A model generated the notes under the pieces. The model ran no database searches and was not told where the DNA came from. It saw nothing but the letters and a program-made list of their open reading frames with translations. A DNA stretch of 38,919 nucleotides from Deltaproteobacteria bacterium (GTDB lineage: Bacteria; Myxococcota_A; Polyangia; JAAYKL01): contig JAFGQN010000120.1 in NCBI GenBank assembly GCA_016935665.1, positions 1 to 38,919 of the forward strand, given 5' to 3'. Made by a program: the position numbers and the translations under genes. The first letter of the stretch is position 1. Every line of letters begins with the position of its first letter. Shown piece by piece: positions 893 through 19,107 of the stretch.

Positions 893-1141
893 CTGAAATG
901 GGATTTAGCGAGAATTGAATAGAAAAGTGTTGTTTTTGATTCTGGGCGTATCCTTTCAGGTCGGGCTTTTCGTTACTGCATGCAACACTGCAATCCCTTA
1001 CGCGGAGAAATCTTATGTCGGTTGCGTGAAATTTGTGGGGAAATGACAGGAAATGCTCGAAGATGGTGGAATCGACCGTGAAACCCACGCGGGATTTTTA
1101 GCTTTCATGGAAAATAGGATTCTATTTTTAACCCCAATCCT

Positions 1142-1381
1142 ATGAACTTCTCTACCCATGACATCCGCCTCGCTGCGACAATTCTTTCAACCACGCCTGC
1201 CCAACTAGTCGGTTTTGATAGAAGTGACCCCAAGCGTATCTATTTTTATTTTTCCCAAGACGACGTCGCAGAAGAGATCGTAGAGAGTTTTAATAATCGG
1301 GAGATTCGTGTCGACCCACTACGATACGGCATGGCGAAGGCATATCTGTCTCGTCTTGCATACGAAGGCTTCGTTTTGTAA
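1142..1381 (+). CDS. DUF5659-type small protein
   Basis: A 79-residue protein that matches, from memory, the pattern of DUF5659 proteins: an N-terminal ST.D..LAA..L segment, a middle YFYFSQDD strand with acidic residues, and a C-terminal NNREIRVDPLRY block followed by a helix. The function of the family is unknown; members often accompany phages and integrative elements. The gene ends where the downstream tyrosine recombinase probably begins, suggesting translational coupling and a role linked to recombination, though this is inference. The start codon has no Shine-Dalgarno sequence; the leader instead has a pyrimidine-rich TAACCCCAATCCT run directly before ATG. Confidence 0.65.
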   Translation: MNFSTHDIRLAATILSTTPAQLVGFDRSDPKRIYFYFSQDDVAEEIVESFNNREIRVDPLRYGMAKAYLSRLAYEGFVL

Positions 1382-1406
1382 TTTTATTTGCTATCCCCAT
1401 TCCGAA

Positions 1407-2294
1407 TTGGATTTACTTGAACTTCATCGCAGATTCCGCAGATATTGCACCATTGAAGAAGGATTAAGCCCCAGAACGGTTTCTGCCATGCAGAGCTGCA
1501 TAAGCACCTTTGTCGGCAGAAGTAAGGCAAGAATGCTTGATGACATTGGTGTGGAGTTGCTTAGAGATTTTTTCTATGAAGGGAAGGAGCGGTTCCATTG
1601 GTCCTATTGGCATTACTGTAATCACTACAAGTATCTAAAGAAATTTCTGGGCTGGTGCGTGGAGAATGGATACTCAAAGGTGAATCCAATGGACAAGATC
1701 AGGAAACCGAAGAAGCCACAGAGTTTGCCGCGTCGGTTGACCCACCAACAAGCCCAGAGCATTTTGTACACGTCGTTTAATTATCGATGGCGGTACAAAT
1801 TCGAACGCCCAAGAAACCATGCTATCATCGCGACCCTCCTTTACACCGGGCTTCGGGCACGGGAGCTTATCAATTTACAGATGGTGGATGTGAACCTTGG
1901 CGCGGACGTCATTCTGGTTCGTTCCGGGAAGGGAAACAAAGACCGGTATGTGCCGGTTCATTCCAAATTGAGCTATATCCTGAAACAATATCTCATTGAG
2001 CGCATGGCGACAGGCAAGATGTCACCATATTTTTTTACGAGTGCTCTGCGCGACGAACCGCTTTGCTATCAGGCGCTGGGAAAAATTTGTCGGCGTATAT
2101 CGGGAGCCACTGGCGTCAAGTTTACGCCACATTGCTTAAGGCATACTTTCGGCAGCGTCGCCATTGAACAGGACATGGGATTGGTACAGCTGAAGGAAAT
2201 TATGGGACACAGTAATATCAGTTCGACCATGATTTATTTGAAGATGTCCCCGGCCGGTCTGAAGACCAGTTTAAATCGTCTTGACCTGTTTTAG
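1407..2294 (+). CDS. Tyrosine recombinase, XerC/XerD-like (first of tandem pair)
   Basis: Site-specific recombinase of the phage-integrase family, about 295 residues. The SAM-like core-binding domain covers roughly the first 105 residues and the catalytic domain the rest. Visible catalytic residues: Arg in GLRARE (about residue 150), Lys in GKGNKDR, the HxxR box HCLRHTF (about 242-245), His in MGHSNISST, and the nucleophile Tyr in MIYLKM. The frame is open from 1308, but those extra codons only shadow the DUF5659 gene, so I prefer a start near the TTG at 1407; no clear Shine-Dalgarno decides it. The gene ends about 120 bases before a tRNA-Leu 3' fragment, consistent with an integrase next to its attachment site. 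It is clearly related to the recombinase at 2606. Confidence 0.85.
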   Translation: MDLLELHRRFRRYCTIEEGLSPRTVSAMQSCISTFVGRSKARMLDDIGVELLRDFFYEGKERFHWSYWHYCNHYKYLKKFLGWCVENGYSKVNPMDKIRKPKKPQSLPRRLTHQQAQSILYTSFNYRWRYKFERPRNHAIIATLLYTGLRARELINLQMVDVNLGADVILVRSGKGNKDRYVPVHSKLSYILKQYLIERMATGKMSPYFFTSALRDEPLCYQALGKICRRISGATGVKFTPHCLRHTFGSVAIEQDMGLVQLKEIMGHSNISSTMIYLKMSPAGLKTSLNRLDLF

Positions 2295-2314
2295 GGCGAC
2301 CTGTATCTTGTAGT

Positions 2315-2323
2315 AGCTATGTA
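2315..2323. repeat. Copy of 9-bp arm AGCTATGTA
   Basis: The 9-mer AGCTATGTA here is identical to the right arm of the inverted repeat at 2574-2594. The copies bracket the tRNA-Leu fragment, which suggests recombinase binding sites, but a 9-mer match alone is weak. Confidence 0.35.
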
Positions 2324-2412
2324 GCCTTGAAGAATTAATCAAAAATTCAAACGCTGCAGTCGGAAATCGCTAATACAAGCCAAAATCATCGCAAAATTAC
2401 CCGGGCAAAAAC

Positions 2413-2482
2413 TGCGTTAGAGCTTGAGGGGCTGGTGGCCACTTTATCGGCCGTGGAGGTTCAAGTCCTCTCCTGAGCACCA
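2413..2482 (+). pseudogene. 3'-half tRNA-Leu(GAG) fragment, probable attachment-site scar
   Basis: The sequence contains the anticodon loop TTGAGGG (anticodon GAG), a long variable arm whose GGCC/GGCC stem encloses ACTTTATC, a T-arm GGAGG-TTCAAGT-CCTCT, the 3' acceptor strand CCTGAGC, discriminator A and an encoded CCA ending at 2482. The D-arm and the matching 5' acceptor GCTCAGG are missing: the bases upstream do not fold as tRNA, and even the anticodon stem is only partly paired. This is what remains when an element recombines at the anticodon loop/3' half of a tRNA-Leu gene. It lies between two tyrosine recombinase genes. The intact tRNA-Leu is expected at the other end of that element, outside the window. 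Confidence 0.75.
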
Positions 2483-2573
2483 CTCAAAGAAATGGCTGAT
2501 GTATAAGCGGAATGTCCCCGTTCGTTTGTTTTCGATTGTGGCGAAAAATGGCTGATTACTTTGTCAAGTACGC

Positions 2574-2594
2574 TACATAGCTCCAAGCTATGTA
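2574..2594. repeat. Perfect 9-bp inverted repeat with 3-bp spacer
   Basis: TACATAGCT and AGCTATGTA are perfect inverted copies separated by CCA. The repeat sits 11 bases before the ATG of the second recombinase. It could be a core site for one of the recombinases or an operator for the downstream gene. A third arm copy lies at 2315-2323. Confidence 0.6.
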
Positions 2595-2605
2595 ACCTAT
2601 TCACT

Positions 2606-3577
2606 ATGAAAAATGAGCTATTACAAATCCATGATGTGTTCTGTCAAGAAGCCATCAATCAGAATTATCGGAAGACCACCATCAGGTGGTGGAAGGAATC
2701 CATTCGCGCTTTCATCCGGTTCTACGGTAATGAAGGAATTCACAGTGTTCAGCACATCACCCTCGACCGGTTGAGACGATACCTGTTCGACGGTATGAAC
2801 AGGGGGTGGACATCGGATTCATTCAATAGTCAGCGGCGGTCTTTAAACGCCTTTCTAAAATGGTGTGTTTTCCGTGGCCTATTGCCGGAAAATCCCCTTG
2901 ACCAGATTCCGCGCCAAAGATTGGAAAAGAAACTTCCCAAGGCGGTCTCCATGGTCGATGCCCAAAGGATATTGGAGTATGCCTTCAATGCCCGTGTTCA
3001 CTATGAATTTCAGCGCTATCGCAACAGAGCCCTGCTGGCAGTGATGATTTTTGCCGGACTCCGCTGTGCGGAAACGCTGAATTTAAAAATGGACCATGTT
3101 GATTTAGTCAATGGTGTGATTGCAGTCCGAAACGGCAAAGGAGGAAAGGACCGTCTTGTACCGATTCATTACAGTTTGGCGTCCATACTCAAAGAATATG
3201 TTGACGCACGGAAAAGACGAAGACGAACCTGTGAGTACTTCTTCGCCAGTGCCCAAGAGGACCGCCAACTTACTTATTTTGCTATTCGTCGTCTTGTACG
3301 GCAGGTCAGAGACGGTACTGGCATCGCTTTTTCTGCTCACCGACTGCGACACACGTTTGCCACGCTCATGTTGGAAGGCGAATGCGACTTGTTTAGTTTG
3401 AAGGAAATGATGGGGCATAGCGATATTCAGACGACCTCGATCTATTTATCTGCGACCACCAACAAGCTGAAAGCCCAGATGTCAAAGCACCCCATGGGAT
3501 TTGGGGGCGGATATGGTGAATCCACAGGACTGCAAATACAAAATATTGGGCAGCCGTATTTTGCGAGACGACGGTAA
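2606..3577 (+). CDS. Tyrosine recombinase, XerC/XerD-like (second of tandem pair)
   Basis: A 323-residue phage-integrase-family recombinase. The N-terminal core-binding domain (about residues 1-115) has the typical SFNSQRRSLNAFLKWCV helix. The catalytic domain shows Arg in GLRCAE, Lys in GKGGKDR, HxxR in HRLRHTF, His in MGHSDIQTT and Tyr in SIYLSAT. ATG 2606 (MKNELLQ) is preferred; the frame extends to a TTG at 2561, but that extension overlaps an inverted repeat and adds no conserved residues. It aligns well with the recombinase at 1407 along the catalytic domain, so the two are paralogues or partners. A C-terminal tail of about 40 residues after the nucleophile Tyr is longer than in XerC/D. 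Confidence 0.88.
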   Translation: MKNELLQIHDVFCQEAINQNYRKTTIRWWKESIRAFIRFYGNEGIHSVQHITLDRLRRYLFDGMNRGWTSDSFNSQRRSLNAFLKWCVFRGLLPENPLDQIPRQRLEKKLPKAVSMVDAQRILEYAFNARVHYEFQRYRNRALLAVMIFAGLRCAETLNLKMDHVDLVNGVIAVRNGKGGKDRLVPIHYSLASILKEYVDARKRRRRTCEYFFASAQEDRQLTYFAIRRLVRQVRDGTGIAFSAHRLRHTFATLMLEGECDLFSLKEMMGHSDIQTTSIYLSATTNKLKAQMSKHPMGFGGGYGESTGLQIQNIGQPYFARRR

Positions 3578-3611
3578 AGTGCATTATGAGCGTTGTGATT
3601 GGTATCGTGTC

Positions 3612-3640
3612 TTGATTTAATTCTGTAACCATGTTATAAT
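3612..3640 (+). promoter_or_regulatory. Sigma70-type promoter of the island operon
   Basis: TTGATT (3612-3617), a 17-base spacer and a perfect TATAAT (3635-3640). The expected transcription start near 3647 lies about 10 bases before the first ATG of the following gene run. Confidence 0.75.
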
Positions 3641-3656
3641 TATACTGGATAATTTT

Positions 3657-3899
3657 ATGTTTATGAAAAAAGGACTCAAACTGCTTTCAGATAGCGGTTT
3701 ACCAGTGGAACAGGAAGCTGAAAGAAATGTTGAGGAAATTGTTCAGAGTTGTCGTGCTGATCTTGAATCTATGTGGAATGAAAAAGGCATGTCAGCAAAA
3801 ACTCAATATTTTCGTCTTCAGATAATACGAAGGGTTGTCACAAAGGATTTGAAAAGTGCCTTCGAAGAAGAAATCAAAAAAAGACGAGAATCGTATTGA
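3657..3899 (+). CDS. Unknown small helical protein
   Basis: An 80-residue, charged, probably all-helical protein that I do not recognise. It follows a strong promoter by a very short leader. Two ATG codons (3657 and 3663) are possible starts and neither has a clear Shine-Dalgarno. Its 3' end overlaps the next gene by about 44 bases in another frame, which implies co-expression. No membrane segment or known motif is visible. As the promoter-proximal gene of the cassette it could be a regulator or an accessory protein. Confidence 0.6.
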   Translation: MFMKKGLKLLSDSGLPVEQEAERNVEEIVQSCRADLESMWNEKGMSAKTQYFRLQIIRRVVTKDLKSAFEEEIKKRRESY

Positions 3900-5169
3900 A
3901 CAGGGAAGCGAAGATGAACTGCTTCTAATCGATACAGAATTGATCGATCATCTTAAGAAAACCGCTTGTTGGGAATTTACCAAAAAAGGGATAGCGCTTT
4001 TTCAGGAGCTGTTTCCTCGCTGGCAGAACGAAAGAAAAAACAAAAGAAAAGAATACACAGAGGTTTATTTCGCTATCGAGATTATGGTGTTTGAACGCGG
4101 GGTGAATTCTGGTGGTGCTTCAGCAAATATGAAAAAGGTCGTTGCGGGGAAAAAGCGCTGCAATGGGTGGTCGCTGTACCGATTAGTCTGCGAGTTCAAC
4201 AGAGTATTTAAAGCAGATTATAAACCATCAGATTTTGCGAAAGCGGTGAAAACGGGACGTGTTTCGACTGCAAATTTGGAAAAGTCCAAGAAGTATATGG
4301 ATGAACTTTGGAATCTTTATCCGCAACGTATTGCATTTGAGCCTGAGGCACGAAGTCTATTTGAAAAATATAAAAGTTCTGGAGCGAGGAAATCTCTGCG
4401 GGAAATAATGAAAATGTTTCTTCGCGATTTTCGAGAAACGATTGCAAATCAGCATAGCATGTTAGGGCCTGTAGCTTATTGGCTCATTCGAAAATGGAAT
4501 GACAGGATAATTGTATTGGCGCGGATTATTTTGCTGTTGGGATTAATAATACCTTCAGATACTTTTATTGTAGCGACAAATAAGCATGGCGGGATTCAGG
4601 TGATAGAGAGATCGAACGGTTCAGCTATTGTAAGGGATGAAATTTTGACACATCCTCGCAATGTGGCGGGAACTCAGCCAATACATGTCGATGAGAAAGG
4701 CACGATATTCGATGAACAAGTTGATGCTGTAGTTATTGCCGATTTGGAGGACAAGAAAGTGGAGCGATTGGAGGTGATGGAATTAGATACTGTTCAAGAG
4801 GAGATGGCAATCGGTTCGCCTGAAGAGAATGAAAAATCAGACACAGCAGATATTTATATTGAAACCAATTTAGGAGAAATTACTGTCTCAGTATCTCTTA
4901 TGTTCGATTTTAGTGTATTCGAAGATGTCGAAACTGTGTACAACGCGCCTGCAAAGTATTTTTCTACCAAATATGAGTTGTATCCAGATAATGACGCGAG
5001 ATGTTCGTACAATGGGAACACGTATCTCTGCAAAGTAGCCGGCAGCCCCCTCGGGATATATGAAATCCGATTTAGCGATGTTGACGGTTATATCTCACCG
5101 AAAGACGTTTCGATAGAATTAAAAAATCCCAGTGCTTATATAGAGCGAATTTATTTACATGGTGAATGA
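3856..5169 (+). CDS. Unknown single-pass membrane protein
   Basis: A 437-residue protein not recognised as any family. The start is GTG at 3856 with AAAGGA eight bases upstream. The N-terminal 20 residues are highly basic. Residues of about 30-210 are helical and basic and presumably cytoplasmic. One strongly hydrophobic segment (RIIVLARIILLLGLIIP, about residues 216-233) would span the membrane. The remaining 200 residues are acidic and beta-rich, and near the C-terminus contain two Cys (CSYNGNTYLC) that could form a disulfide outside the cytoplasm. This bitopic layout would suit a scaffold of a membrane DNA-transfer complex. That role is inferred only from the ATPase encoded downstream. Confidence 0.7.
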   Translation: MPSKKKSKKDENRIEQGSEDELLLIDTELIDHLKKTACWEFTKKGIALFQELFPRWQNERKNKRKEYTEVYFAIEIMVFERGVNSGGASANMKKVVAGKKRCNGWSLYRLVCEFNRVFKADYKPSDFAKAVKTGRVSTANLEKSKKYMDELWNLYPQRIAFEPEARSLFEKYKSSGARKSLREIMKMFLRDFRETIANQHSMLGPVAYWLIRKWNDRIIVLARIILLLGLIIPSDTFIVATNKHGGIQVIERSNGSAIVRDEILTHPRNVAGTQPIHVDEKGTIFDEQVDAVVIADLEDKKVERLEVMELDTVQEEMAIGSPEENEKSDTADIYIETNLGEITVSVSLMFDFSVFEDVETVYNAPAKYFSTKYELYPDNDARCSYNGNTYLCKVAGSPLGIYEIRFSDVDGYISPKDVSIELKNPSAYIERIYLHGE

Positions 5170-5343
5170 ATGCTAGGGACCGCCAATATTTTTTCTCAGA
5201 CTGTAAAATTAGCCGCTCAGACGAATGTGGTTGTTTTTTTTCTGTAGTATTCTTGTTTGCGGTGTTGCAGTTGGGACTTAATTTCCGGAGCTAATTTAGC
5301 CAGCAGTCAACCAACATTTTTTTTGATGTCGTACCCTCTGGTG

Positions 5344-5362
5344 GTGGAGCGCTTTGCTCCAC
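5344..5362. promoter_or_regulatory. Hairpin GTGGAGC-GCTTT-GCTCCAC upstream of cassette genes
   Basis: A perfect 7-bp stem with a 5-base loop in the 231-base gap before the gene at 5401. It lacks a following T-run, so it is not a convincing terminator. It may be an mRNA leader structure, a processing site or a protein-binding site. Otherwise the gap shows only poly-T patches. Confidence 0.4.
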
Positions 5363-5400
5363 ACAGGTGAGGTGCGCCCTAAAACAGCAGAGGTCAAACC

Positions 5401-5811
5401 ATGAAAAAATTTAAAGAGCCTATCGTTTTCTTTGTTCGACATATGGTTGAGCAAACATTGGAAGATATTCGGGAGAACCGTATATCGCGTTTTGAAGCTG
5501 CTCTTCGCTTGCTTCTGACATCCTTGATAGCGAATGCCGGTAGTTTGAGCGAAGGTACCATTGAGTTAAATACCGCCATTTTAACAACTTTCTTTGAGTA
5601 TCTAGGTGGCGATGAATCAACGGGAAGCATTGTACTGACACCGAATTTGATTGCATCGAAGTTTCTCATCAACGGGTGGGATCAGGACTTATTCATCTGC
5701 GACAATTCCTCTGTTCTGTTTCTTGAACAGTTTATTTCCGAAGCCATGACGAATGAACTACCGGTTAGTTGTGACCCGGAAATGAAGGAGGCTCGTGATG
5801 GTGCGTTTTAA
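5401..5811 (+). CDS. Unknown 136-aa protein
   Basis: Not recognised. The protein is mostly helical, with a moderately hydrophobic stretch (ALRLLLTSLIANAG, about residues 33-47) that is too short and mixed for a confident membrane segment. The ATG has AGAGG upstream (spacing about 9). The end overlaps the start of the next gene by 14 bases, so translational coupling is likely. It belongs to a run of same-strand genes that leads to the P-loop ATPase at 8901, and is probably a soluble component of the same system. Confidence 0.6.
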   Translation: MKKFKEPIVFFVRHMVEQTLEDIRENRISRFEAALRLLLTSLIANAGSLSEGTIELNTAILTTFFEYLGGDESTGSIVLTPNLIASKFLINGWDQDLFICDNSSVLFLEQFISEAMTNELPVSCDPEMKEARDGAF

Positions 5812-6340
5812 AAAGAGCTGCCAAAAAAGAGTTAGCAGTGGTTGGTGGCCATCACGGTGGCGAAGAAGGAATAGGTCGAAGAAGTCTCGCGTACTTACAC
5901 TTGTGGATGGTGGGAAAAGAAGCGGGAAAAGCACTCCTTTGACGATGTTGGAAAGTGCGAAGACGGCTCCACTGATGCGATTTAACAGCGATGATTCATT
6001 TCGCGCGTATTGCTTGCTTCAGTCTCTGCAATTCATGTTCTTCCAGAGATTAACTCGTAGCTATGAGAGTTTGTTGTCTGAGCTTGTCATGTTGATGCAA
6101 TCTGTTGAATTCCGTGATTTCGAGGTGCTGCGGCGGATGAGCGACATAGAGAATTGTAAATGGTCTGCATTATCGATGTTCAGGGAACTGTCGGATATCG
6201 GCAGCGAAGAGGAGTTGTTATCTATACAGCTTCAGAAATGGTTGCGGATGGCGTTGGAAGTGACGTCCTCGATTTATATACAAGAAAAACGTTTCACTCC
6301 GAGTGTCGTGCGTACTTCCGAAGGAGATAGTGATGACTAA
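5798..6340 (+). CDS. Unknown basic 180-aa protein
   Basis: Not recognised. The first 35 residues are strongly basic with several Trp (GWWPSRWRRRNRSKK), suggesting nucleic-acid or membrane-surface binding. The rest is helical. ATG 5798 is chosen over the GTG at 5795 because AAGGAG lies 7 bases upstream. A segment GGKRSGKST superficially resembles a P-loop, but there is no Walker B and the context does not fit a nucleotide-binding fold. It overlaps both neighbours by a few bases, so the genes are likely co-translated. Confidence 0.6.
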   Translation: MVRFKKSCQKRVSSGWWPSRWRRRNRSKKSRVLTLVDGGKRSGKSTPLTMLESAKTAPLMRFNSDDSFRAYCLLQSLQFMFFQRLTRSYESLLSELVMLMQSVEFRDFEVLRRMSDIENCKWSALSMFRELSDIGSEEELLSIQLQKWLRMALEVTSSIYIQEKRFTPSVVRTSEGDSDD

Positions 6341-7823
6341 GACTGGTGCCATCGGCGTTATCGCCGGATTATTATTCATCGTTTACGTTTTGATTCTTGG
6401 CGGGCAAGCAGTGAGGAGAACGGGCGTCTTTGTATTTGATAAGGTTGATACCGTCGTTTCTTGGATTGTTAATTTGTTTGTTTGGGGTGGCTTCGTGCTT
6501 GTTGGTCTTTTTATCGTTGCGGTCGTGATCGATTTGCTGTTTCGCCCGGTTTGGAGTGTGGTAAACGCGCAACTGAAAACACGTCGTGCCATACAAACAT
6601 GCTCACTCCCCTCTTTGGGGGCATTTCGGGATTTGTCTGGCGTCACAGGTTTTTCTGCATTGACTGCAAAACATTTGCGGGAGGTGTTCTATACACAGAC
6701 GGGGCGTTTGCCTTGCGTTGATACCTTTCGGAATTGTGAAGTTGATTATCTCTCATATAGAGGCACGACGTTGCGACATTTTTGTATGGGCGTTGGAAGA
6801 CCATTCATTGAAAGCTATTTTTCCAAGGTTCATGGGATCTATCTCGCTGGGACTCTCGACTGGCTGACAGCAATAGTTGACGGATGGATTACCGGGGAAA
6901 AACGATATAAGCGCATGGCTTGTACCGGGATGGCCATTCATTTTCTTTCGTTTGGGAAGTTTGGCTACAACGAGCAATCCTGTTTGATTAAGCAGGACTT
7001 AGAATCCGTGAAGCAAAATCGTGTCCGGGTGATGCGGCTTCTGTGGCAGAATGCGTTTTCCGTTATCGGCCAGCTTGAGTCCTATGTACCAATGGACGTG
7101 GAAATTGAGGCGGAGAAGGCATCTTGTAGGAACGAAGCAGTGTGTCAGCACAATAGAGTCAGTGACGTGCAGACAACACGGTTACTTCCGCCCGCCGTTA
7201 AAGCTGAAGAAGCAAACGAAGACGTTTGCGAGGATGACGAGTCGGAGAGGAGTGATTCTTTTATTTCTGGACATGCGTTGATAGTTACTGATGAAGAACA
7301 GGAGCGGAAACAAAAAGAAGCAGTCGCGATTGAGCTTTTTGATGCAGCGACGAGTATTTGTGATGGAGATGGCCCGGAGTGGAATGACATTCCCAAGATG
7401 CTCACCGAATCACTGACGGTTTTAACGTCGTCCGGTATGCATTTTTATCCAAACAAAGATGAGTTATTTGAGGCTATCGCGCACTTTCGGATGATGTGGG
7501 AGCGTTTTCCCGAATTTGAATCTGCTTTTGCAGGAGTGATGCAGTTGGAGGGCGATTCCTCAGAAGTTTTCTCTGCGCCTTGGATGAATGCGGCGATCAG
7601 TGACCTCGATGGCAATATCGCGGCTGGCATTTCCGTTTTGAAGCGAAATGCCGCGCGACATTTTCTGACCTGTGAATCCCCTCTCTGGAAGGTTGAAAGC
7701 GTCAAGCCAACTTTAGACCGCGATGATGAGGTTGAAACCATCAAAACCAATACGAAACAGAAAACTGAATCCACTGTTCACTCCGTGAGTGAGCCGCCGG
7801 AATTCGAATCTGTATTTTCTTGA
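6333..7823 (+). CDS. Unknown membrane-anchored 496-aa protein
   Basis: Two N-terminal membrane segments (about residues 5-25, GVIAGLLFIVYVLILGG, and 42-69, around VWGGFVLVGLFIVAVVI) are followed by a large soluble region of over 420 residues with an acidic stretch near 280-320. The family is not recognised. ATG 6333 is preferred over the upstream in-frame start at 6303 because AAGGAGAT precedes it at optimal spacing. It overlaps the upstream gene by 8 bases and is followed 11 bases later by another membrane protein. Two N-terminal TM helices plus a cytoplasmic body resemble the anchor layout of VirD4-type coupling proteins, but there is no Walker A here; the ATPase is a separate gene further down. 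Confidence 0.65.
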   Translation: MTKTGAIGVIAGLLFIVYVLILGGQAVRRTGVFVFDKVDTVVSWIVNLFVWGGFVLVGLFIVAVVIDLLFRPVWSVVNAQLKTRRAIQTCSLPSLGAFRDLSGVTGFSALTAKHLREVFYTQTGRLPCVDTFRNCEVDYLSYRGTTLRHFCMGVGRPFIESYFSKVHGIYLAGTLDWLTAIVDGWITGEKRYKRMACTGMAIHFLSFGKFGYNEQSCLIKQDLESVKQNRVRVMRLLWQNAFSVIGQLESYVPMDVEIEAEKASCRNEAVCQHNRVSDVQTTRLLPPAVKAEEANEDVCEDDESERSDSFISGHALIVTDEEQERKQKEAVAIELFDAATSICDGDGPEWNDIPKMLTESLTVLTSSGMHFYPNKDELFEAIAHFRMMWERFPEFESAFAGVMQLEGDSSEVFSAPWMNAAISDLDGNIAAGISVLKRNAARHFLTCESPLWKVESVKPTLDRDDEVETIKTNTKQKTESTVHSVSEPPEFESVFS

Positions 7824-7834
7824 GGAGGTGAATC

Positions 7835-9019
7835 ATGCATTCTGAACTCGCTTTTTTTGAGAAGGTGGCTATCGTCACCAATGCGATATTAACACTATTA
7901 AGCTCCATTTTTACGTGGGAAGGACTTTCATATTGTGGGGCGGCATCCAATTTTCAGGCATTTCTTCGTGTTGCCGGTGCCGCATTGATCTCCATCGTTT
8001 CATGGTGGTGGTACTTCAAATATTTTCCTAGCGCGACTTCTAAACAACGTGGAGTTATGTCTGTCGGTATAGTCGGAGTTTCTGTTTTGATGATCAGCTT
8101 ATCGTCAGTTTACGGCGCGGTTGGCTTAAGCGCGGAGCGCCTGACAAAAATTCATTTGCAAGAGAATTTAAAAGCCATCGAGGAAATTCGGGACGAACTT
8201 ATTAAAAGGCGACGTGGAATTGAAGAAATTAAAAGTACTTTAGAAAATGGAAAACAAGCATTCGTTACCTTTTCTGAGCAGGAAAAGAATGGACTGATCA
8301 CTGGAAGGCGTGGCAAAGCGAGGGCTGTTAAGAGTTTAAGAGGTCTTGTGAAGGGATTTGATACTATTATCGAATCCATTGAGGATTATACCGCAGAAAC
8401 TGATCTACTTGAGCAAAAATCCCAAGCACTAAGTAGACAGCTAGCGAGTGTAATCGAAGGAGAATTGTCGATTCTAGAAAAGAGCCAACAGGCGCAAGTT
8501 TTGTTTAATCGCATAAACGCGACATTTACATCAATGCAAAAGAGCCCAGCAATCGATAATTGGATACAGAACATTGACAGCATTTTTTTGATAGATTCAG
8601 AGAAAACAGAAGTCCTTTCAAAGAGCTTATCCACGCCATTGCGGAAAGTAAAAGGCAGCCTGTTGGATCAAATCCAAAGCATGCCGAAAGTTGATGAGGT
8701 GGTTTTACAAAGGTTTGTTACCCTTGACAGCCTTCAATTGCTTATCAGGTATGCACATCTTTCGTTTGCCGAAATAATTGGAATTTTGTCTACAGACGTT
8801 TTGGCTAATTTAGCTTCATTGGCCGGGCTCGTTTTCCTGCATGCGCGCTTCAAAGAGAGTTCAAGTAACAGTTCTTCAATTAACGAAAATGAGGATTCAT
8901 ATGGGCAACGTGCCGCTTCAGATAAAGACTCTAATCAAATCCCAGAGTGGCTTGAGAAAAGAATTGCTGAGCAAGTCGAACGAAAGTCAAAAGGCAATAA
9001 GAAAGGAAAAGCCGCCTGA
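7835..9019 (+). CDS. Unknown multi-pass membrane protein with coiled coil
   Basis: A 394-residue protein with three N-terminal membrane segments (about 10-30, 42-62, 73-97), a long charged coiled-coil-like region (about 100-225) and a fourth hydrophobic segment (about 308-336), followed by a polar, lysine-rich tail. The layout recalls DUF4407-like or stalk-forming membrane proteins, but I cannot assign a family. It has the best ribosome-binding site of the cassette (GAGGAGGTGA just before ATG 7835). Its 3' end overlaps the ATPase frame by about 120 bases. It is a candidate partner of the ATPase in a membrane channel or tether. Confidence 0.68.
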   Translation: MHSELAFFEKVAIVTNAILTLLSSIFTWEGLSYCGAASNFQAFLRVAGAALISIVSWWWYFKYFPSATSKQRGVMSVGIVGVSVLMISLSSVYGAVGLSAERLTKIHLQENLKAIEEIRDELIKRRRGIEEIKSTLENGKQAFVTFSEQEKNGLITGRRGKARAVKSLRGLVKGFDTIIESIEDYTAETDLLEQKSQALSRQLASVIEGELSILEKSQQAQVLFNRINATFTSMQKSPAIDNWIQNIDSIFLIDSEKTEVLSKSLSTPLRKVKGSLLDQIQSMPKVDEVVLQRFVTLDSLQLLIRYAHLSFAEIIGILSTDVLANLASLAGLVFLHARFKESSSNSSSINENEDSYGQRAASDKDSNQIPEWLEKRIAEQVERKSKGNKKGKAA

Positions 9020-11345
9020 GAGCGACCGGATTTATTTGGGAGAGACTGAGGATAAGCAAATGTTTTACATCACGTGGGAAATGATTCGGCGGCACTTTCA
9101 AATGCTTGGCATTACTGGCTGCGGGAAGACTTTCTTGGCGTTGGCGATGATTTATCAAGGGATTTTGCTCGGTAAGAATTTGGTCGTTATAGACCCTCTG
9201 GGAACACTTTTCAGGCAAGCAAAATCCTTTGTTCGATATTTGTACTCGCAGCTTACAGTGATGACGCGGACGCGGTATCCCAAGTACAACCAGCAAATTC
9301 TTGCTGAACGTGACTATTTGGTCGGTCGTATGCTCTTCCAGAGTTTTGTAAATAACGACCTCTGTGGTTTTAAACTTGGGGCATTGGCTACGAGTGCAAG
9401 ATTCGACGCTGAAGCAGTGACCGATATAGTTATAAAAGCGTTCGCTCGCGCGACAGACGGTAATCTTGCTGAACAACTCCGTCGGGTGCAAGTAATGCGT
9501 GCTGCCTTATCATTAACGGCGTTTGCTGGGGGCGCTCTAACAGATGCGCCGTTACTACTCATGAAGTCCGGCGAAGAAATAGTCAAATTTATCGACGGTC
9601 TTGTGATTAATGCGAAGCGAGCAGGGCGACCCTTAAATCTTGAATATGTACGCATGTACATGAACGAGTATTTTGTGGCCTTGCAGGACAGACAGCGAAA
9701 TGACCTTGTTGCGTCTACCTATACGGCGTTTGGGCCCCTTCTCGGAAAGAGTAAGCTTTTCAACTGGTTGAATTCACCCATTGGGAATCTTCATTTTGAG
9801 CGTGTGTGCGATGTACGCGGTGTTTGCTTTTTTTGTGAAATTCCTAGGAATCTCGGCTTGCAGGAACAACGCGTTGCCGGAGCATTGGTGCTTGAGTGGG
9901 TGAAGCAGGTCTGTATGAGCCGTAAAAACCCTCAAGAAAATCCTGTGGTGTATTTGATTGTGGATGAGGCGCATTTGATCATGGACGTTGAGATGGGTAT
10001 AGATTCCGCCACGGTCAGAAACTACAATTTGTCCATGACATATATGGGGCAAAGTACGGCTCAATTTCTGGATGAATCTGGTAACGATATGTTGCTCCAA
10101 AATCTCACCCAAAATACATGGACGAAAATATACTTCACGCTCGGTTCATATGATGGTGAGAAGTTGGCCAAGGAAATTTTTCAGCCTCGTGGAGAGATGG
10201 AAAAAGCTCCCCAGAATACCATCACGAATTCTCATCAAGAGAGTTATGCGCAAAGTATCACGGAATCAGTCAGTCGGGCTATAGGAGAAGCGAATGCCCA
10301 TTCTGATGGAACGACCATTTCTTTTGGTGAGGGACAGGTATATGCCGTTGCCGTTAATAATGGTCATGGCTATGTGCATTCCGAGGGGCATGCCATCTCA
10401 GTGGGAGAAACGGACTCCGAAGTCTTTGCAAAATCAGAGACGTTGGGCACGACTTTGGTTCAAACAAAAACCAAAGGAGAAAGCTCAGGTACTGCAGATG
10501 CCCATGGAACAGCTGTTTCCAACGGGACGATGGAATCGTCGGGGCAAGGGAATTCAACAAATTTTGGTGAAGCCTCTTCTCAGAATCTTTTTTATAGCTT
10601 CAATGACGGAAGAAGCGTGAAGACCGGAATGATTGATGCCGGTATGGGAGGGGTACAAATGAGTACTGGCAATGGGGAATCTTCCGCTAAAAATTCAGGT
10701 ACAAGCGATTCAACAATGCACAGCACGGCGACCAGTTTTCAGAAGGCTGCTTCGGATGTGCTGTCCGCGACTAAAAGTAGGATGTCCTCCCGTGGAGAAG
10801 CGGTAGGAGTAAATAAGGGGACGTCGAAAACGACTGCAAAAGGAAAGGCATGGTCGAAAACGACCGGCAAATCTCTTGCCGATGCCTTTTCAATCATTGA
10901 AAGCTTGATGCGGTCAATCAGTCATTCTGTCTCGGTATCAGAAGCTCGAAGTCAGAGTGATACGGAGACGCATTCTGAAACCAATACCAAGTCATTCGGT
11001 ACGTCTACCACCCGTGGTCATAGCGATAGCGTCAGTGTGGCTACCAGCACACCCTATATGAATCTTTCTGAAGAAGCGGTTGTTCGTGGGTATAAACTGT
11101 CATCGTTACCTGCCAGACATGCATACGTATTAACGAAACATGACAATCAAGTGAGGAAGATTAAGACTTTGGATTTGCCGACGTCGTGGGAGCTTCCGTT
11201 TAAAAGTGAGAAACTGGAACGTCAATTTGAAGAAGCCATTCGGCCTGAGCCAGTTGTTGTTCCTGAAAAGAATTTATTTGAGCGTATCGAAGATGAAAAA
11301 CATCGCCAGTTTCAAAAACTGGAAAAACCGAAAGGATTTCAGTGA
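8901..11345 (+). CDS. VirD4/TraG/HerA-like P-loop ATPase with Ser/Gly/Thr-rich region
   Basis: A protein of about 814 residues. Walker A is GITGCGKT (about residues 70-77), Walker B is VVYLIVDEAH (about 348-357), and a sensor-like MGQSTAQFLDE follows, the arrangement of type IV coupling proteins and HerA/FtsK-related DNA translocases. The TM helices typical of VirD4 are absent here; membrane proteins are encoded just upstream. From about residue 445 to 715 the sequence is unusual: Ser, Gly, Thr, His and Ala-rich, with repeated SxSxGE-like runs, ending in a normal C-terminal region with YKLSSLPARHAYV. Start choice is uncertain: the frame is open from ATG 8841, and 8889 or 8901 are alternatives; the ATPase domain begins near 9024. 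It is likely to move DNA across the envelope or act with the Replic_Relax protein that follows. Confidence 0.85.
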   Translation: MGNVPLQIKTLIKSQSGLRKELLSKSNESQKAIRKEKPPESDRIYLGETEDKQMFYITWEMIRRHFQMLGITGCGKTFLALAMIYQGILLGKNLVVIDPLGTLFRQAKSFVRYLYSQLTVMTRTRYPKYNQQILAERDYLVGRMLFQSFVNNDLCGFKLGALATSARFDAEAVTDIVIKAFARATDGNLAEQLRRVQVMRAALSLTAFAGGALTDAPLLLMKSGEEIVKFIDGLVINAKRAGRPLNLEYVRMYMNEYFVALQDRQRNDLVASTYTAFGPLLGKSKLFNWLNSPIGNLHFERVCDVRGVCFFCEIPRNLGLQEQRVAGALVLEWVKQVCMSRKNPQENPVVYLIVDEAHLIMDVEMGIDSATVRNYNLSMTYMGQSTAQFLDESGNDMLLQNLTQNTWTKIYFTLGSYDGEKLAKEIFQPRGEMEKAPQNTITNSHQESYAQSITESVSRAIGEANAHSDGTTISFGEGQVYAVAVNNGHGYVHSEGHAISVGETDSEVFAKSETLGTTLVQTKTKGESSGTADAHGTAVSNGTMESSGQGNSTNFGEASSQNLFYSFNDGRSVKTGMIDAGMGGVQMSTGNGESSAKNSGTSDSTMHSTATSFQKAASDVLSATKSRMSSRGEAVGVNKGTSKTTAKGKAWSKTTGKSLADAFSIIESLMRSISHSVSVSEARSQSDTETHSETNTKSFGTSTTRGHSDSVSVATSTPYMNLSEEAVVRGYKLSSLPARHAYVLTKHDNQVRKIKTLDLPTSWELPFKSEKLERQFEEAIRPEPVVVPEKNLFERIEDEKHRQFQKLEKPKGFQ

Positions 11346-12280
11346 TGGCACGCGTTCAGGGCGACAATATTCTTTTGGTTGGTCTGTTCGAGCATCGTTA
11401 TTTACGTAGTGGCCAGCTTGCACTGTATAGCGGTAGGAGCGGCCCTGTCGTGAGAAGACGCATGAATGAACTGATTCGTTTGAAGTTGGTGATAGCGCTT
11501 GAGAGAGAGCCGATGCACGAAGTAGTTTATGCGCTTACGGTGAAGGGATATGACTGTGTTGGAGAGTTTCTGGAACTTGAAGGCAGTCTTGCGTTCTCGT
11601 CTTCTACATCCAAATCTGCTGAAACCATGTACTTGCAGCATACGTTGCTTTGTAATGACATCCGTATCGCCTTTGCACACGCTTTGACGAGTCATCCTAA
11701 TGTGGGGATGTTTGAAAGTATCCCAGAGTGGCGCATTGCAGAGAGTAAGGCAAGGAAACCGGCTCAGAAGTATGTATTGGCCGAGGATTTCAAATCCAAG
11801 TTGGGTGATAAAAAACGAACAGTTCGATTTCGACCGGATTGTTTGCAGGTGCTGTATGCCAAAACTCAAGGGTTGGATTATCGCGCAGCCTATTTTGTAG
11901 AGGCGGATAGGTCATCTCAGCCTTATTATCGGATTCGGGAAAAGTATTTCTCGTATATGATTTATTTCTCAGAACGGCGCTTTACGACGACATGGAAATC
12001 ACAAATCATGCGAGTGCTGTTCGTTATTGCCCGAGGAAACCCTGAGCGACGCATTCATAGAATGCAGGAAGAATTACTTTTCACCGTGAAGAAGTTCGGG
12101 GCTGACATCCTTCCCGATAAATCTCAGCAGGAAGAGTTCTTGAAGTGCTTTCGGTTTTGTTGTGCCAGTGAGCTGAGTACGGAAACTGTCATCGATAATC
12201 CAATCTGGCGTGATTGGCGTAATGTTCCCATCGCTATTTACAAACCATCGCAACGTAAAACGGAGAGTAAAAGTGCGTAG
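11345..12280 (+). CDS. Replic_Relax (replication-relaxation) family protein
   Basis: A 311-residue protein. Residues 8-75 form a winged helix (LFEHRYLRSGQLALY; VRRRMNELIRLKLV; VYALTVKGYD). The signature YFVEADRSSQPYYRIREKYF near residues 185-205 resembles the E.D...K nuclease-like core typical of the Replic_Relax family, which is common on conjugative plasmids and integrative elements and is proposed to act in replication or mobilisation. TGATG stop-start overlap with the ATPase gene and an AAAGGA ribosome site indicate tight coupling. The partner ATPase immediately upstream suggests a DNA-processing plus DNA-pumping pair. The biochemical activity of the family is not firmly established. Confidence 0.82.
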   Translation: MARVQGDNILLVGLFEHRYLRSGQLALYSGRSGPVVRRRMNELIRLKLVIALEREPMHEVVYALTVKGYDCVGEFLELEGSLAFSSSTSKSAETMYLQHTLLCNDIRIAFAHALTSHPNVGMFESIPEWRIAESKARKPAQKYVLAEDFKSKLGDKKRTVRFRPDCLQVLYAKTQGLDYRAAYFVEADRSSQPYYRIREKYFSYMIYFSERRFTTTWKSQIMRVLFVIARGNPERRIHRMQEELLFTVKKFGADILPDKSQQEEFLKCFRFCCASELSTETVIDNPIWRDWRNVPIAIYKPSQRKTESKSA

Positions 12281-12410
12281 GAATTTCAATATATCTACGG
12301 TTCTGTGTTTTTTTAACATGCTTCGAAAAACGGATTCTTGTTTAGGAAGATTGGCTCATTGTCTTCACAACCTGTTTGGCTGGGGTTTTATTTTTGTAAT
12401 TTATAATATT

Positions 12411-12608
12411 ATGAAAATTGCAGCATCCCCAATTGATATGGTCTGCTTGGAATGTCATTCCACGGATTGTATCTCCCAAATCTTTGATTCCGAAATACAT
12501 GGTGTCGACGAGTATGCTCGTTGTATGCGCTGTGGAAGCTACGACATCGCGTACCGTGATACTGCGGTGTTCGATGAATTGTGGCTTCGTGGAGTGATTA
12601 AATGTTAG
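12411..12608 (+). CDS. Small double-CxxC (zinc-ribbon-like) protein
   Basis: A 65-residue protein with CLEC near residue 11 and CMRC near residue 41, spaced as in zinc-ribbon folds, plus two further Cys. The same frame is open upstream to 12318 or beyond, where a hydrophobic stretch would be added, so a longer form of about 97 residues is possible. Neither start has a Shine-Dalgarno. The stop overlaps the ATG of the next gene, suggesting coupling. Possible roles include DNA binding or protein scaffolding. Confidence 0.5.
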   Translation: MKIAASPIDMVCLECHSTDCISQIFDSEIHGVDEYARCMRCGSYDIAYRDTAVFDELWLRGVIKC

Positions 12609-13303
12609 GAAACACGGAATTTTTATCATTGGAGAGAAGAGTAGGGCTTACCAGCCGCTATGGCAGGTTCTTTTGGCATGAGCCGATTTCCAAGCAGATT
12701 CGTTTGGAAGCGTCACTCCCTATGGAGTCTGATACGGCCTTACTCTTTTTTCCGGTGATTTCTAGCGTTCCTCAATGGTCTGAATTGTCAATTGTACATC
12801 GCAAGATGCTTTACGATTCTATTGCAGATTTCAAGGAATGTTTGGCGAGCACTTGTTTGCTTGCAGGTACTGCTTGCGTTTGTGTTTGGTTTTGTTGTCA
12901 GGAACGTGCCTTTTGTTTCAGAAGGTACGTTTCTGACCATATGGTCGGAGTTTTATTATTAACTCTAATTCCTATGAGTACAAAACCATACCGAGTCTTA
13001 ACAGCAGACTCAGGCTTCCAAATTGGAAGAGCTTTCGTCAATAAGGATGGAAGTATTAACGTGGATTTCTTCGGATTTCCCGTTGATGGTCGATTTTCGA
13101 TTCACAACATCGAGAACGATTTTTCCAATGAAGAACGCTTGAATGCTTTCACCGTTGTAGAAAGCAAAGGCCATAATTATTGGCATCATGTCGGGAAAGC
13201 GTATGCTATCCACGAGCATGGTTCCATCGAAGGCCTGCTTTCTGCAATACCAGCGAATGGCGTTATTACCATTCGCAGACAGAAGCAAAATGTTGAGGCT
13301 TAA
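12602..13303 (+). CDS. Unknown protein with C-terminal NKDGSINV-type domain
   Basis: The frame is open for 233 codons from an ATG overlapping the previous stop. The C-terminal 110 residues (from an internal ATG at 12974, MSTKPYRV) look like an independent small beta-rich protein: IGRAFVNKDGSINVDFFGFP recalls short proteins found on integrative elements, of unknown function. The preceding part (about residues 80-124) is Cys-rich and hydrophobic and less convincing as coding sequence. Either one fused gene or two genes are possible. A strong terminator follows the stop by 20 bases, so this ends the cassette. Confidence 0.55.
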   Translation: MLGNTEFLSLERRVGLTSRYGRFFWHEPISKQIRLEASLPMESDTALLFFPVISSVPQWSELSIVHRKMLYDSIADFKECLASTCLLAGTACVCVWFCCQERAFCFRRYVSDHMVGVLLLTLIPMSTKPYRVLTADSGFQIGRAFVNKDGSINVDFFGFPVDGRFSIHNIENDFSNEERLNAFTVVESKGHNYWHHVGKAYAIHEHGSIEGLLSAIPANGVITIRRQKQNVEA

Positions 13304-13322
13304 ATCACAGCGCAAGTTGGTT

Positions 13323-13374
13323 GGAGCAGTGGATACTTTTTGGGTATTCACTGCTCCGCTTCTTTTTGTTTCTT
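13323..13374 (+). terminator. Strong intrinsic terminator of the island cassette
   Basis: A 14-bp stem (13323-13336 pairs with 13344-13357, one G-T wobble), a 7-base loop, and then the T-rich tract CTTCTTTTTGTTTCTT. It follows the stop codon at 13303 and closes the gene run started at 3612. Confidence 0.85.
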
Positions 13375-13428
13375 ACCCGTGCCACACAGGCGCAGATAAG
13401 GTATTTTATTTTTCTAACCGGAATTATT

Positions 13429-13605
13429 ATGCATTGCTCCATTTCAATGGCGCTGTTTATTGGCGGCGCTTTCTGGATGGCGACTGCTGTCCTTGGTCTA
13501 CGTATTTCCAAGCCTCCTCGCGCACCTCAGCGAAGGAAGCAGAAGAAAATGACGGTACCACGCGTTACACCTCAAAAATCACGGTTCTGGGAGATTTCTG
13601 CCTAA
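13429..13605 (+). CDS. Possible small membrane protein, 58 aa
   Basis: A short frame with one hydrophobic segment (MALFIGGAFWMATAVLGL) and a very basic tail (RAPQRRKQKK). CCGGA precedes the ATG. The one-helix-plus-basic-tail layout is plausible for a real small membrane protein, but there is no further support. An overlapping frame on the same strand (from 13188 through to 14036) also lacks stops, so the assignment is tentative. Confidence 0.35.
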   Translation: MHCSISMALFIGGAFWMATAVLGLRISKPPRAPQRRKQKKMTVPRVTPQKSRFWEISA

Positions 13606-13678
13606 AAGGTATGAGGGGAATGAAGACGTTGTTTTTATCCTCTCTACCACTCGTCTGTGTTGTACGGTTTAGCCGAAT

Positions 13679-13700
13679 CAAAGACAATGCATGGTCTTTG
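13679..13700. promoter_or_regulatory. 22-bp near-perfect palindrome, operator-like
   Basis: CAAAGAC and GTCTTTG arms with an inner ATGCAT core; only one base pair of the eleven does not match. This symmetry and size is typical of a dimeric repressor operator. It lies about 350 bases upstream of the excisionase gene. Confidence 0.5.
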
Positions 13701-13952
13701 GTGTCCATAGATTACATTTTGGAAAAAGCCGAGTTAAGCGTTGCACGCTTCTTTCATGTTGGATGTCGTATTGCTGACGTTCGCAAGTTCTTGATGGTGA
13801 TTTGGCCAGACCATTATTTGCGCAATGTTGAGCACATAGTGACCACAACTGAGAGAGACTTAAGTCCTTTGGGCGCAGCTGACCTTGGTCTCGGTAATAC
13901 CAGAATGCAGAGCTGCTTCAGCTCAGGTGCGGACTTATTTCTAAGTCTTGCC

Positions 13953-13981
13953 GGAACAGGGAGATACTTTCTCCCTGTTCC
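13953..13981 (+). terminator. 12-bp perfect hairpin, possible terminator
   Basis: GGAACAGGGAGA pairs perfectly with TCTCCCTGTTCC around a TACTT loop. The following bases are AT-rich (CGCTTTATTCTTTATTTATT) but without an immediate T-run. It may insulate the xis-int pair or encode the 3' end of a small RNA. Confidence 0.5.
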
Positions 13982-14048
13982 AACGCTTTATTCTTTATTT
14001 ATTAGGGATAGTGAGAATCTGATAATTCAATTTTAGTGCGAGGAAAAA

Positions 14049-14282
14049 ATGCGTAAATGCGGCGACAATATCGATAGTCCTTGGTTAAATGCTGACCAAG
14101 CGTTCGAATACTTGGCAATGCCGTCGCGTAAAGCGTTGTATGAGGCGGTCAGGCGAGGAGATATACCAGCGTATCGTATTGGCCGCCGGTTGCGATTTCA
14201 TCGCTTGGAATTGGATGAATTCCTGAAAAACCACAGATTGTATGAACCGCATTCCTTTGATTTCGCTTCTGTGATATCTTAG
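14049..14282 (+). CDS. Excisionase-like helix-turn-helix protein
   Basis: A 77-residue protein of the MerR-like HTH_17/excisionase type. The characteristic pattern is visible: WLNADQAFEYLAMPSRKALYEAVRRG (helix-turn-helix), then IPAYRIGRRLRFHRLELDEFL (wing plus final helix). GAGGA lies just upstream of the ATG. It directly precedes the integrase gene, the usual place for a recombination directionality factor. It may also regulate the integrase. The tail of about 15 residues after the HTH is not conserved. Confidence 0.85.
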   Translation: MRKCGDNIDSPWLNADQAFEYLAMPSRKALYEAVRRGDIPAYRIGRRLRFHRLELDEFLKNHRLYEPHSFDFASVIS

Positions 14283-14321
14283 GCCCCGGTAACGCCCATC
14301 TGCTGGTTGGAAGGACATTTT

Positions 14322-15404
14322 ATGGGTGTTACGAAATATAAATCCAATACAGGAAAAGCTCTTTGGAAATTAGATACGTGGTTGACTTTGCCGGATGGAC
14401 GCCTGAAGCGTGTACGACAAAGCAAGATACCGACTAAGGAAATGGCGCTTACCTTGGAAGCGAAGCTGAAAGCTGAAGCCTTCGAGGGCAAATTCTTCGA
14501 TAAGGTTAAGACGGTGTCAGTCGAAAAGGTGTGGAAGAACTACGCTGACAAAGCCGAGCGGGATAATCGGGCGTGGGCGACAGACAAAGGTCGCGCGGCA
14601 CATCTGTTGGAGCATTTAGGCAAGATAACTGCAAATGCCCTTACAGAGAAGCATGTTGAGGATTATCGCAAAGCGCGATTCAGTGAAACGACATGCCGAG
14701 GTGGCGCACCGAAATCGGGAACTATTGACCGTGAGGTGGAGTTACTCAAGCGGATTTTGAACTACAGCGTTCGCACGAAATTACTTCAAACGAATCCCAT
14801 TGCTCATGTACCGCTGCTCAACAAACCGAATACACGAAAGCGTACATTGGATGAGGATGGCTTTGAGAAGCTTCTGGAAGTCGCTGATGACCATATCAAG
14901 CCGATTCTCATCGTTGCCTTTGATACCGGTATGCGGAAAGAGGAAATTCTTGGGTTGCGCTGGGAACAGGTTGATTTGGCTGATGGTCGGATTTTTCTCT
15001 ACGAGGAAGACACAAAGGCCCAACAGGCTCGGTTAATTCTGATGACTGGACGCGTTTTGGACACTTTGGAGGCGTTGCCGAGAGCATTGAGCGGATATGT
15101 GTTCATCAATCCCGAAACTGGAACTCGCTGGAGCTGTATAAAGAAGTCATGGAAAAGCGCTTTGAAGCGGGCAGGACTGGACGGCATGTGGTTTCACGAT
15201 ATGCGCCGAAGCTTTGTTTCCAATTCAAGACGGGTCGGTGTGCAGGAAAGTGTGGTCATGCGGATGTCCGGTCACAAGAGCCGGAAAGTCTTTGATAGAT
15301 ACAACATCGTTTCTGATGATGACCTAAAACAGGCGGTTCAGCTTATCGAGCAAAGTCGCCAAAAAGAAATCTCAACAGAAGAAAGCAAGGTAGCCGAGGC
15401 CTAA
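14322..15404 (+). CDS. Phage-type tyrosine integrase next to tRNA-fMet
   Basis: A 360-residue integrase with an N-terminal arm-binding-like region (residues 1-65), a SAM-like core-binding domain (about 68-170) and a catalytic domain. Catalytic residues: Arg in TGMRKEE, Lys in EDTKAQQ, HxxR as HDMRRSF, His in MSGHKSR, and Tyr in FDRYNIV. ATG 14322 is chosen because GGAAGGA lies 6 bases upstream. Its sequence type differs from the tandem recombinases at 1407 and 2606. The stop is about 115 bases from the 3' end of tRNA-fMet, so it most probably inserted the island there, with the preceding HTH protein as its directionality factor. Confidence 0.9.
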   Translation: MGVTKYKSNTGKALWKLDTWLTLPDGRLKRVRQSKIPTKEMALTLEAKLKAEAFEGKFFDKVKTVSVEKVWKNYADKAERDNRAWATDKGRAAHLLEHLGKITANALTEKHVEDYRKARFSETTCRGGAPKSGTIDREVELLKRILNYSVRTKLLQTNPIAHVPLLNKPNTRKRTLDEDGFEKLLEVADDHIKPILIVAFDTGMRKEEILGLRWEQVDLADGRIFLYEEDTKAQQARLILMTGRVLDTLEALPRALSGYVFINPETGTRWSCIKKSWKSALKRAGLDGMWFHDMRRSFVSNSRRVGVQESVVMRMSGHKSRKVFDRYNIVSDDDLKQAVQLIEQSRQKEISTEESKVAEA

Positions 15405-15424
15405 GGTTTTCTGTTCCTCGTGTT

Positions 15425-15471
15425 TTTGTAGACGCCTTTTGGACACTGCGTGTTATTTAGGGGTCTACAAA
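15425..15471. repeat. Inverted repeat TTTGTAGAC...GTCTACAAA near presumed att site
   Basis: Nine-base arms at 15425-15433 and 15463-15471 lie between the integrase stop and the tRNA. They could be integrase or excisionase arm sites. The 29-base spacer makes a functional RNA hairpin less likely. Confidence 0.45.
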
Positions 15472-15476
15472 GACGA

Positions 15477-15515
15477 AAGCCCCTCAGGCTAAGTACCTGA
15501 GAGGCTTAAGTTTTT
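15477..15515. terminator. Bidirectional terminator between integrase and tRNA-fMet
   Basis: A 12-bp stem with one mismatch (15477-15488 with 15496-15507) and a 7-base loop. On the plus strand it is followed by TTTTT at 15511-15515. On the minus strand it is followed by a looser CTTTCGTCTTT. It can end both integrase and tRNA transcripts. Confidence 0.7.
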
Positions 15516-15520
15516 GCATT

Positions 15521-15594
<74 letters not shown>

Positions 15595-17595: not shown

Positions 17596-19107
<1,512 letters not shown>

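Follow-up and report, generated by a model that had tools for sequence, protein, structure and literature searches.

Elements that encode a relaxase and a coupling protein (T4CP) of their own and lack a type IV secretion system (T4SS) have been described before. The mobilizable plasmid CloDF13, with MobB and MobC, combines its own T4CP with a MOBC relaxase in the absence of a T4SS (PMC7431656), and two streptococcal integrative mobilizable elements (IMEs) of class 8 pair a MobC relaxase with a VirD4 coupling protein, likewise without a T4SS (PMC5357655, PMC5704250). Coupling proteins without a transmembrane domain (TMD) work with a separate membrane protein, as in the TraJ/TraI pair of pIP501. 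The plasmid pIP501 itself carries a full T4SS.

The window, the whole stretch of DNA analysed here, is contig C177 (38 919 bases) of an 8.16-Mb draft genome (G000). Genes from 182 to 15404 form one unit, in which a tyrosine integrase (PF00589 profile match; 14307-15404, plus strand) faces the adjacent tRNA-Met(CAT) gene (15521-15594, minus strand), its integration target. To the right of the tRNA lies apparently ordinary chromosome, where the gene at 17596-19104 encodes a protein that has an extended Arg-Asp repeat and, at its C terminus, a weak KOW match. We consider it likely that a run of genes within this unit serves as the mobilisation module for an integrative element lodged in the 3′ end of tRNA-Met, namely an IME that supplies relaxase and coupling protein itself but relies on a borrowed channel. 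This reading draws on the integrase beside the tRNA, a duplicated tRNA 3′ half, a conserved gene set, a T4CP-type ATPase core, a PD...E signature in the candidate relaxase and the lack of any visible T4SS genes.

CloDF13 resembles the window element in having its own coupling protein and MOBC relaxase and no T4SS, but MobB has an essential membrane domain, whereas the window ATPase has none and the membrane proteins are encoded separately; the window element is also integrative and much larger. The class 8 streptococcal IMEs come closer in being integrative, with a PF13814 relaxase, a VirD4-type coupling protein of their own and no T4SS. They use serine integrases and reside in Firmicutes, whereas the window element has a tyrosine integrase at a tRNA and adds two Xer-like recombinases, a serine-rich coupling protein and unmatched membrane proteins. 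With TraJ/TraI the window element shares a soluble coupling ATPase and a separately encoded membrane protein, although the described partners are small and those of the window large, and the likeness is one of description, without comparison to TraI. The relaxase class and the arrangement of own relaxase plus coupling protein without a T4SS are known, and it is the composition of the element that is unusual. Since a T4SS-less IME that encodes both a coupling protein and a MOBC relaxase has already been described (PMC5704250), the original prediction of an undescribed minimal transfer system is narrowed to an unusual form of this arrangement.

The run lies on the plus strand from 3657 to 13303 and encodes proteins of 80, 437, 136, 181, 496-506 and 394 aa, the ATPase, a Replic_Relax protein, a double-CxxC protein and a 233-aa protein. 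The original prediction had listed the bitopic protein, ATPase, Replic_Relax and double-CxxC proteins correctly, and had described the genes as bound together by stop-start overlaps between one promoter and one strong terminator. Most neighbours do overlap or almost touch, with the ATPase start (8901) 119 nt inside the 394-aa gene and a 4-nt overlap between the ATPase and Replic_Relax genes, but gaps of 231 nt (5170-5400) and 130 nt (12281-12410) interrupt the run. The strong intrinsic terminator is present (13322-13358, plus strand), with a 17-bp stem followed by CTTCTTTTTG. A sigma-70-like match, TTGATT-N17-TATAAT (3612-3640, plus strand), is suggestive, but a single promoter is a guess, because promoter-like matches are no commoner than in shuffled sequence (10 found, 15.9 expected). 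The run probably comprises at least two units, because in an element of another genus of the same family (genome G009) the 80-aa gene and its large bitopic partner are located elsewhere, on the opposite strand. A 282-aa frame at 13188-14036 is unlikely to be a gene, as it has no matches and overlaps both the terminator and another gene.

Three further plus-strand genes of the element precede the run: one for a 236-aa protein with no assigned function (182-892), conserved in the G009 element at 36% identity and upstream of the Xer pair there too, and two for XerC/D-like tyrosine recombinases (both PF00589; 1308-2294 and 2561-3577). The first recombinase is 56% identical to its G009 homologue, the second 54% in G009 and 51% in G271, a genome of another family. 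No genes of the element are better conserved than this tandem pair (1308-3577; 51-56% identity), which is separate from the integrase; could the pair serve in dimer resolution?

The ATPase gene (8901-11345, plus strand; open frame from 8841) encodes a coupling-protein-type enzyme with a serine-rich insert. By sequence comparison its core is that of a conjugative coupling protein, the T4CP nucleotide-binding domain: aligned with four T4CPs by hhalign, it scored 99.7% with an E-value of 1.5e-25 over 336 columns, while the Pfam T4CP models gave sub-threshold matches. A Foldseek search with the predicted structure returned TrwB for all of the best 17 matches (top 1.7e-6), followed by Cag-beta, VirB4 and HerA (2.5e-3). 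The model is poor (mean pLDDT 42.6, core mostly 55-78, serine-rich part too poor to interpret), so we take this ranking as supporting evidence only. No N-terminal transmembrane segment is predicted, which sets the protein apart from the canonical VirD4 type and is compatible only with the TMD-less class. Serine makes up 19% of residues 461-740 of the open frame, in an alternating pattern, and over this insert of approximately 280 residues (window 10221-11060) serine autocorrelation occurs at even spacings with a peak at 6, which suggests strand-like repeats. The serine-rich NCBIfam family NF033849 matches residues 462-738 (E = 1.2e-15), but with a score of 56 against a cut-off of 650 and a match confined to the compositionally biased part, we do not regard the ATPase as a member. 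Relatives were absent from the plasmid and phage collections. Among 379 genomes of the phylum, close members of the family occur only in G000, G009 and G271; many weaker matches elsewhere in the phylum are other ATPases, and those inspected (L027, L029 and L030) lie in unrelated settings.

The Replic_Relax protein (11342-12280, plus strand) combines a winged helix with a predicted PD-(D/E)XK-type nuclease domain and is most likely a relaxase of the MOBC type. It matches PF13814, the Pfam family given for MOBC relaxases (PMC5357655), with an E-value of 3.4e-15 (57.1 bits against a curated cut-off of 25.3). For a MOBC yardstick we used pAM373, a plasmid typed MOBC by PLSDB, whose relaxation protein also matches PF13814 and aligns modestly with the window protein (hhalign, 82.9%, E = 9e-6); the CloDF13 record shows a broken-up mob region. 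The original prediction had seen no relaxase of a known MOB class, which these matches contradict; its view that the ATPase/Replic_Relax pair points to DNA mobilisation is supported. P165, D166, E187 and Y205 are invariant in 15 homologues, with E-x-D in place of E-x-K and a nearby lysine in most. In the predicted structure (mean pLDDT 80.7) the winged helix is followed by an alpha/beta domain, where D166 opens a strand, E187 sits close to the end of the following one and the catalytic-type residues are placed as expected on strands and helix. By structure comparison, residues 1-81 resemble winged helices of the MarR type (Z up to 13.8) and also the centromere-binding protein AspA; an N-terminal winged helix has been reported in TraX of pAD1 too (PMC12857230). 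All structure matches of the full model were to winged helices, so that the absent nuclease match is uninformative there. A search of the plasmid collection for relatives was negative at E-values up to 1, and the intergenic stretches inspected showed no oriT-like array of repeats.

The original prediction had counted two multi-TM proteins, a description that suits the 394-aa membrane protein (7835-9019, plus strand), with its three transmembrane segments flanking a long middle part (four in its homologue), but is generous for the 496-aa protein (6333-7823, plus strand; 506 aa if the open frame from 6303 is used), which has two N-terminal transmembrane helices and a large soluble part. The former is conserved in G009 and weakly in G271, the latter in both. 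Their conserved position upstream of an ATPase without an anchor, by analogy with TMD-less T4CPs, makes either or both candidate membrane partners of the ATPase. The 437-aa bitopic protein (3856-5169, plus strand) has one transmembrane helix (218-236) and a distant 551-aa homologue in G009; with the 80-aa gene (3657-3899, plus strand) it forms a conserved pair. Homologues were not seen for the 136-aa (5401-5811) and 181-aa (5795-6340) proteins, both on the plus strand. Downstream of the Replic_Relax gene, also on the plus strand, lie the genes for the 65-aa double-CxxC protein (12411-12608), which has a weak homologue between Replic_Relax and the integrase in G009, and for the 233-aa protein (12602-13303), which has no assigned function. 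None of the membrane and small proteins of the run gave a significant match in Pfam, NCBIfam or PHROGs, in keeping with the original prediction, which had called the membrane proteins unknown.

The gene order also recurs elsewhere. Eleven genes of the element have homologues in the single G009 element: those for the 236-aa protein, both Xer recombinases, the 80-aa/437-aa pair, both membrane proteins, the ATPase, Replic_Relax, the CxxC protein and the integrase. The order there is 236-aa, Xer 1, Xer 2, 507-aa, 414-aa, ATPase, Replic_Relax, CxxC-like, integrase and tRNA-Asp, with the 80-aa/large bitopic pair off to one side. G271 keeps part of it (Xer 2, a 496-aa homologue, a 394-aa-like stretch, ATPase, integrase and a tmRNA), and its ATPase gene is followed by no Replic_Relax gene; the element has a divergent Replic_Relax-like gene instead. 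Across the class, 10 of 116 genomes carry Replic_Relax genes. These often have an ATPase nearby, and at several independent loci they are near a tyrosine integrase adjoining a tRNA or tmRNA. In Micromonospora (L083), VirB6-like, PrgI and VirB4-like genes, which are missing in the window element, precede a T4CP gene and then a Replic_Relax gene that closes the cluster. The same order of the pair at the end of a T4SS cluster ties it to conjugation.

The element extends beyond the gene run: in the window it covers at least 182-15562, and approximately 16 kb more probably lie on another contig, which would bring it to at least 31.7 kb. The att core is the 3′ half of the tRNA-Met gene (15519-15562, plus strand), of which 44 bp are repeated identically on contig C146. 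A 17-bp repeat, GACGCSTTTTGGACACT, for which approximately 0.01 chance matches are expected per sequence, occurs twice near the element's window end, within int as GACGCGTTTTGGACACT (15049-15065, plus strand) and as GACGCCTTTTGGACACT (15431-15447, plus strand), both possible arm-type sites for the integrase, and a third time approximately 125 bp from the att copy of C146. This contig also carries a DnaG-like primase gene divergent from a second Replic_Relax-like gene (L079, 1753-4878), and both have homologues that lie side by side with matching relative orientation in the element of G271 (L025, 18149-19888). The two contigs share no overlap, and from the att copy, the 17-bp repeat and the conserved gene pair we infer that C146 probably holds the other end of the element, which then has an integrase and a site-specific insertion with a flanking repeat, the second repeat being on a separate contig. 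The second Replic_Relax-like gene keeps the PD...E and KY motifs, and the element may encode two such nucleases. Contig C42 carries another copy of the tRNA-Met 3′ half (L080, 1482-1529), next to genes that look AbiE-like by eye; we preferred C146 because the arm-type repeat is absent from the C42 copy, which probably marks another island using the same tRNA. Gabija genes (GajA, 6.7e-235; GajB, 2.9e-158) with an HNH-containing gene (L079, 8572-13871) and a PDC-S06 candidate (5503-8226) lie on C146 and are probably cargo of the window element.

In agreement with the original prediction, which had seen no VirB4, VirB6 or VirB8-10, no T4SS genes, mating-pore genes included, were recognised in the element's window part or on C146; the stretch between the contigs lies outside the sequence seen. 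VirB4 (PF03135) matched in none of the 116 genomes of the class, the element's own included, P-loop_TraG (PF19044) in two of them, and TrbI only below the cut-off in one of the 11 element-bearing genomes. In these profile searches the control genomes were positive, while the genomes searched are drafts with missing parts, and a divergent T4SS could escape the HMMs. A helper T4SS is therefore hard to find where such elements live, which weighs against a borrowed channel. Either helpers are rare or divergent or the elements need none, and we favour the first, as no candidate for crossing the outer membrane is visible.

Were no helper needed, the ATPase and the two membrane proteins, with the MOBC nuclease, would form an envelope-crossing channel of their own. 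Such self-sufficiency would explain why such elements are spread through a class with almost no VirB4, and it is consistent with the presence of Replic_Relax in genomes of that class, with the absence of VirB4 and TrbI matches from all three genomes that hold this ATPase family and with the conserved membrane proteins directly upstream of the ATPase. We nevertheless regard it as unlikely, given the limits of drafts and profiles, the lack of any recognisable outer-membrane or periplasmic component in a host that is probably diderm, the fact that helpers need not reside in a sampled genome, and the reliance of known T4SS-less conjugation on FtsK-type pumps in mycelial Gram-positives.

It is more doubtful still that the genes are anti-phage cargo, a HerA-like ATPase with a PD-(D/E)XK nuclease on a Gabija-bearing island. 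The defence genes on C146 and weak PADLOC matches of the ATPase (mad8, 2.4e-9; HerA, 4e-4) point that way, but the HerA matches are at 4e-4 or worse with no accompanying nuclease, the Replic_Relax and membrane proteins have no PADLOC match, the fold matches rank TrwB ahead of HerA, and the ATPase/Replic_Relax pair stays with the integrase core in several elements and is not exchanged as cargo would be. Equally improbable is replication or partition of an excised circle without cell-to-cell transfer, Replic_Relax being the initiator or centromere binder and the ATPase a DNA pump: the PF13814 name, the AspA-like winged helix and the primase on C146 fit this, but the winged-helix match is generic (MarR families score equally well), the ATPase resembles T4CPs and the Micromonospora T4SS cluster contains the same gene pair.

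An IME with a borrowed channel thus remains our preferred explanation, although the scarcity of VirB4, the lack of a recognised oriT, the poor ATPase model, the filling of the Replic_Relax structure matches by its winged helix, the G271 arrangement and the indirect joining of the element's left end to C146 all detract from it. In such an element, the integrase would excise a circle, and the Replic_Relax protein, as a MOBC-type relaxase, would bind oriT via its winged helix and nick one strand. The 496-aa and/or 394-aa proteins would tether the anchor-less coupling ATPase to the inner membrane, from where it would pass that strand to the mating channel provided by a conjugative helper, and the element would re-integrate in the recipient's tRNA-Met.

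If it is an IME, the rare combination of own MOBC relaxase and own coupling protein would extend to a group of bacteria, possibly the Myxococcota, in which conjugation has hardly been described. The family also offers natural coupling proteins with an apparently separate membrane anchor, useful for studying the role of that anchor. The recurrence of relaxase/coupling protein elements in a class where VirB4 is nearly absent raises the question of which channel they use.
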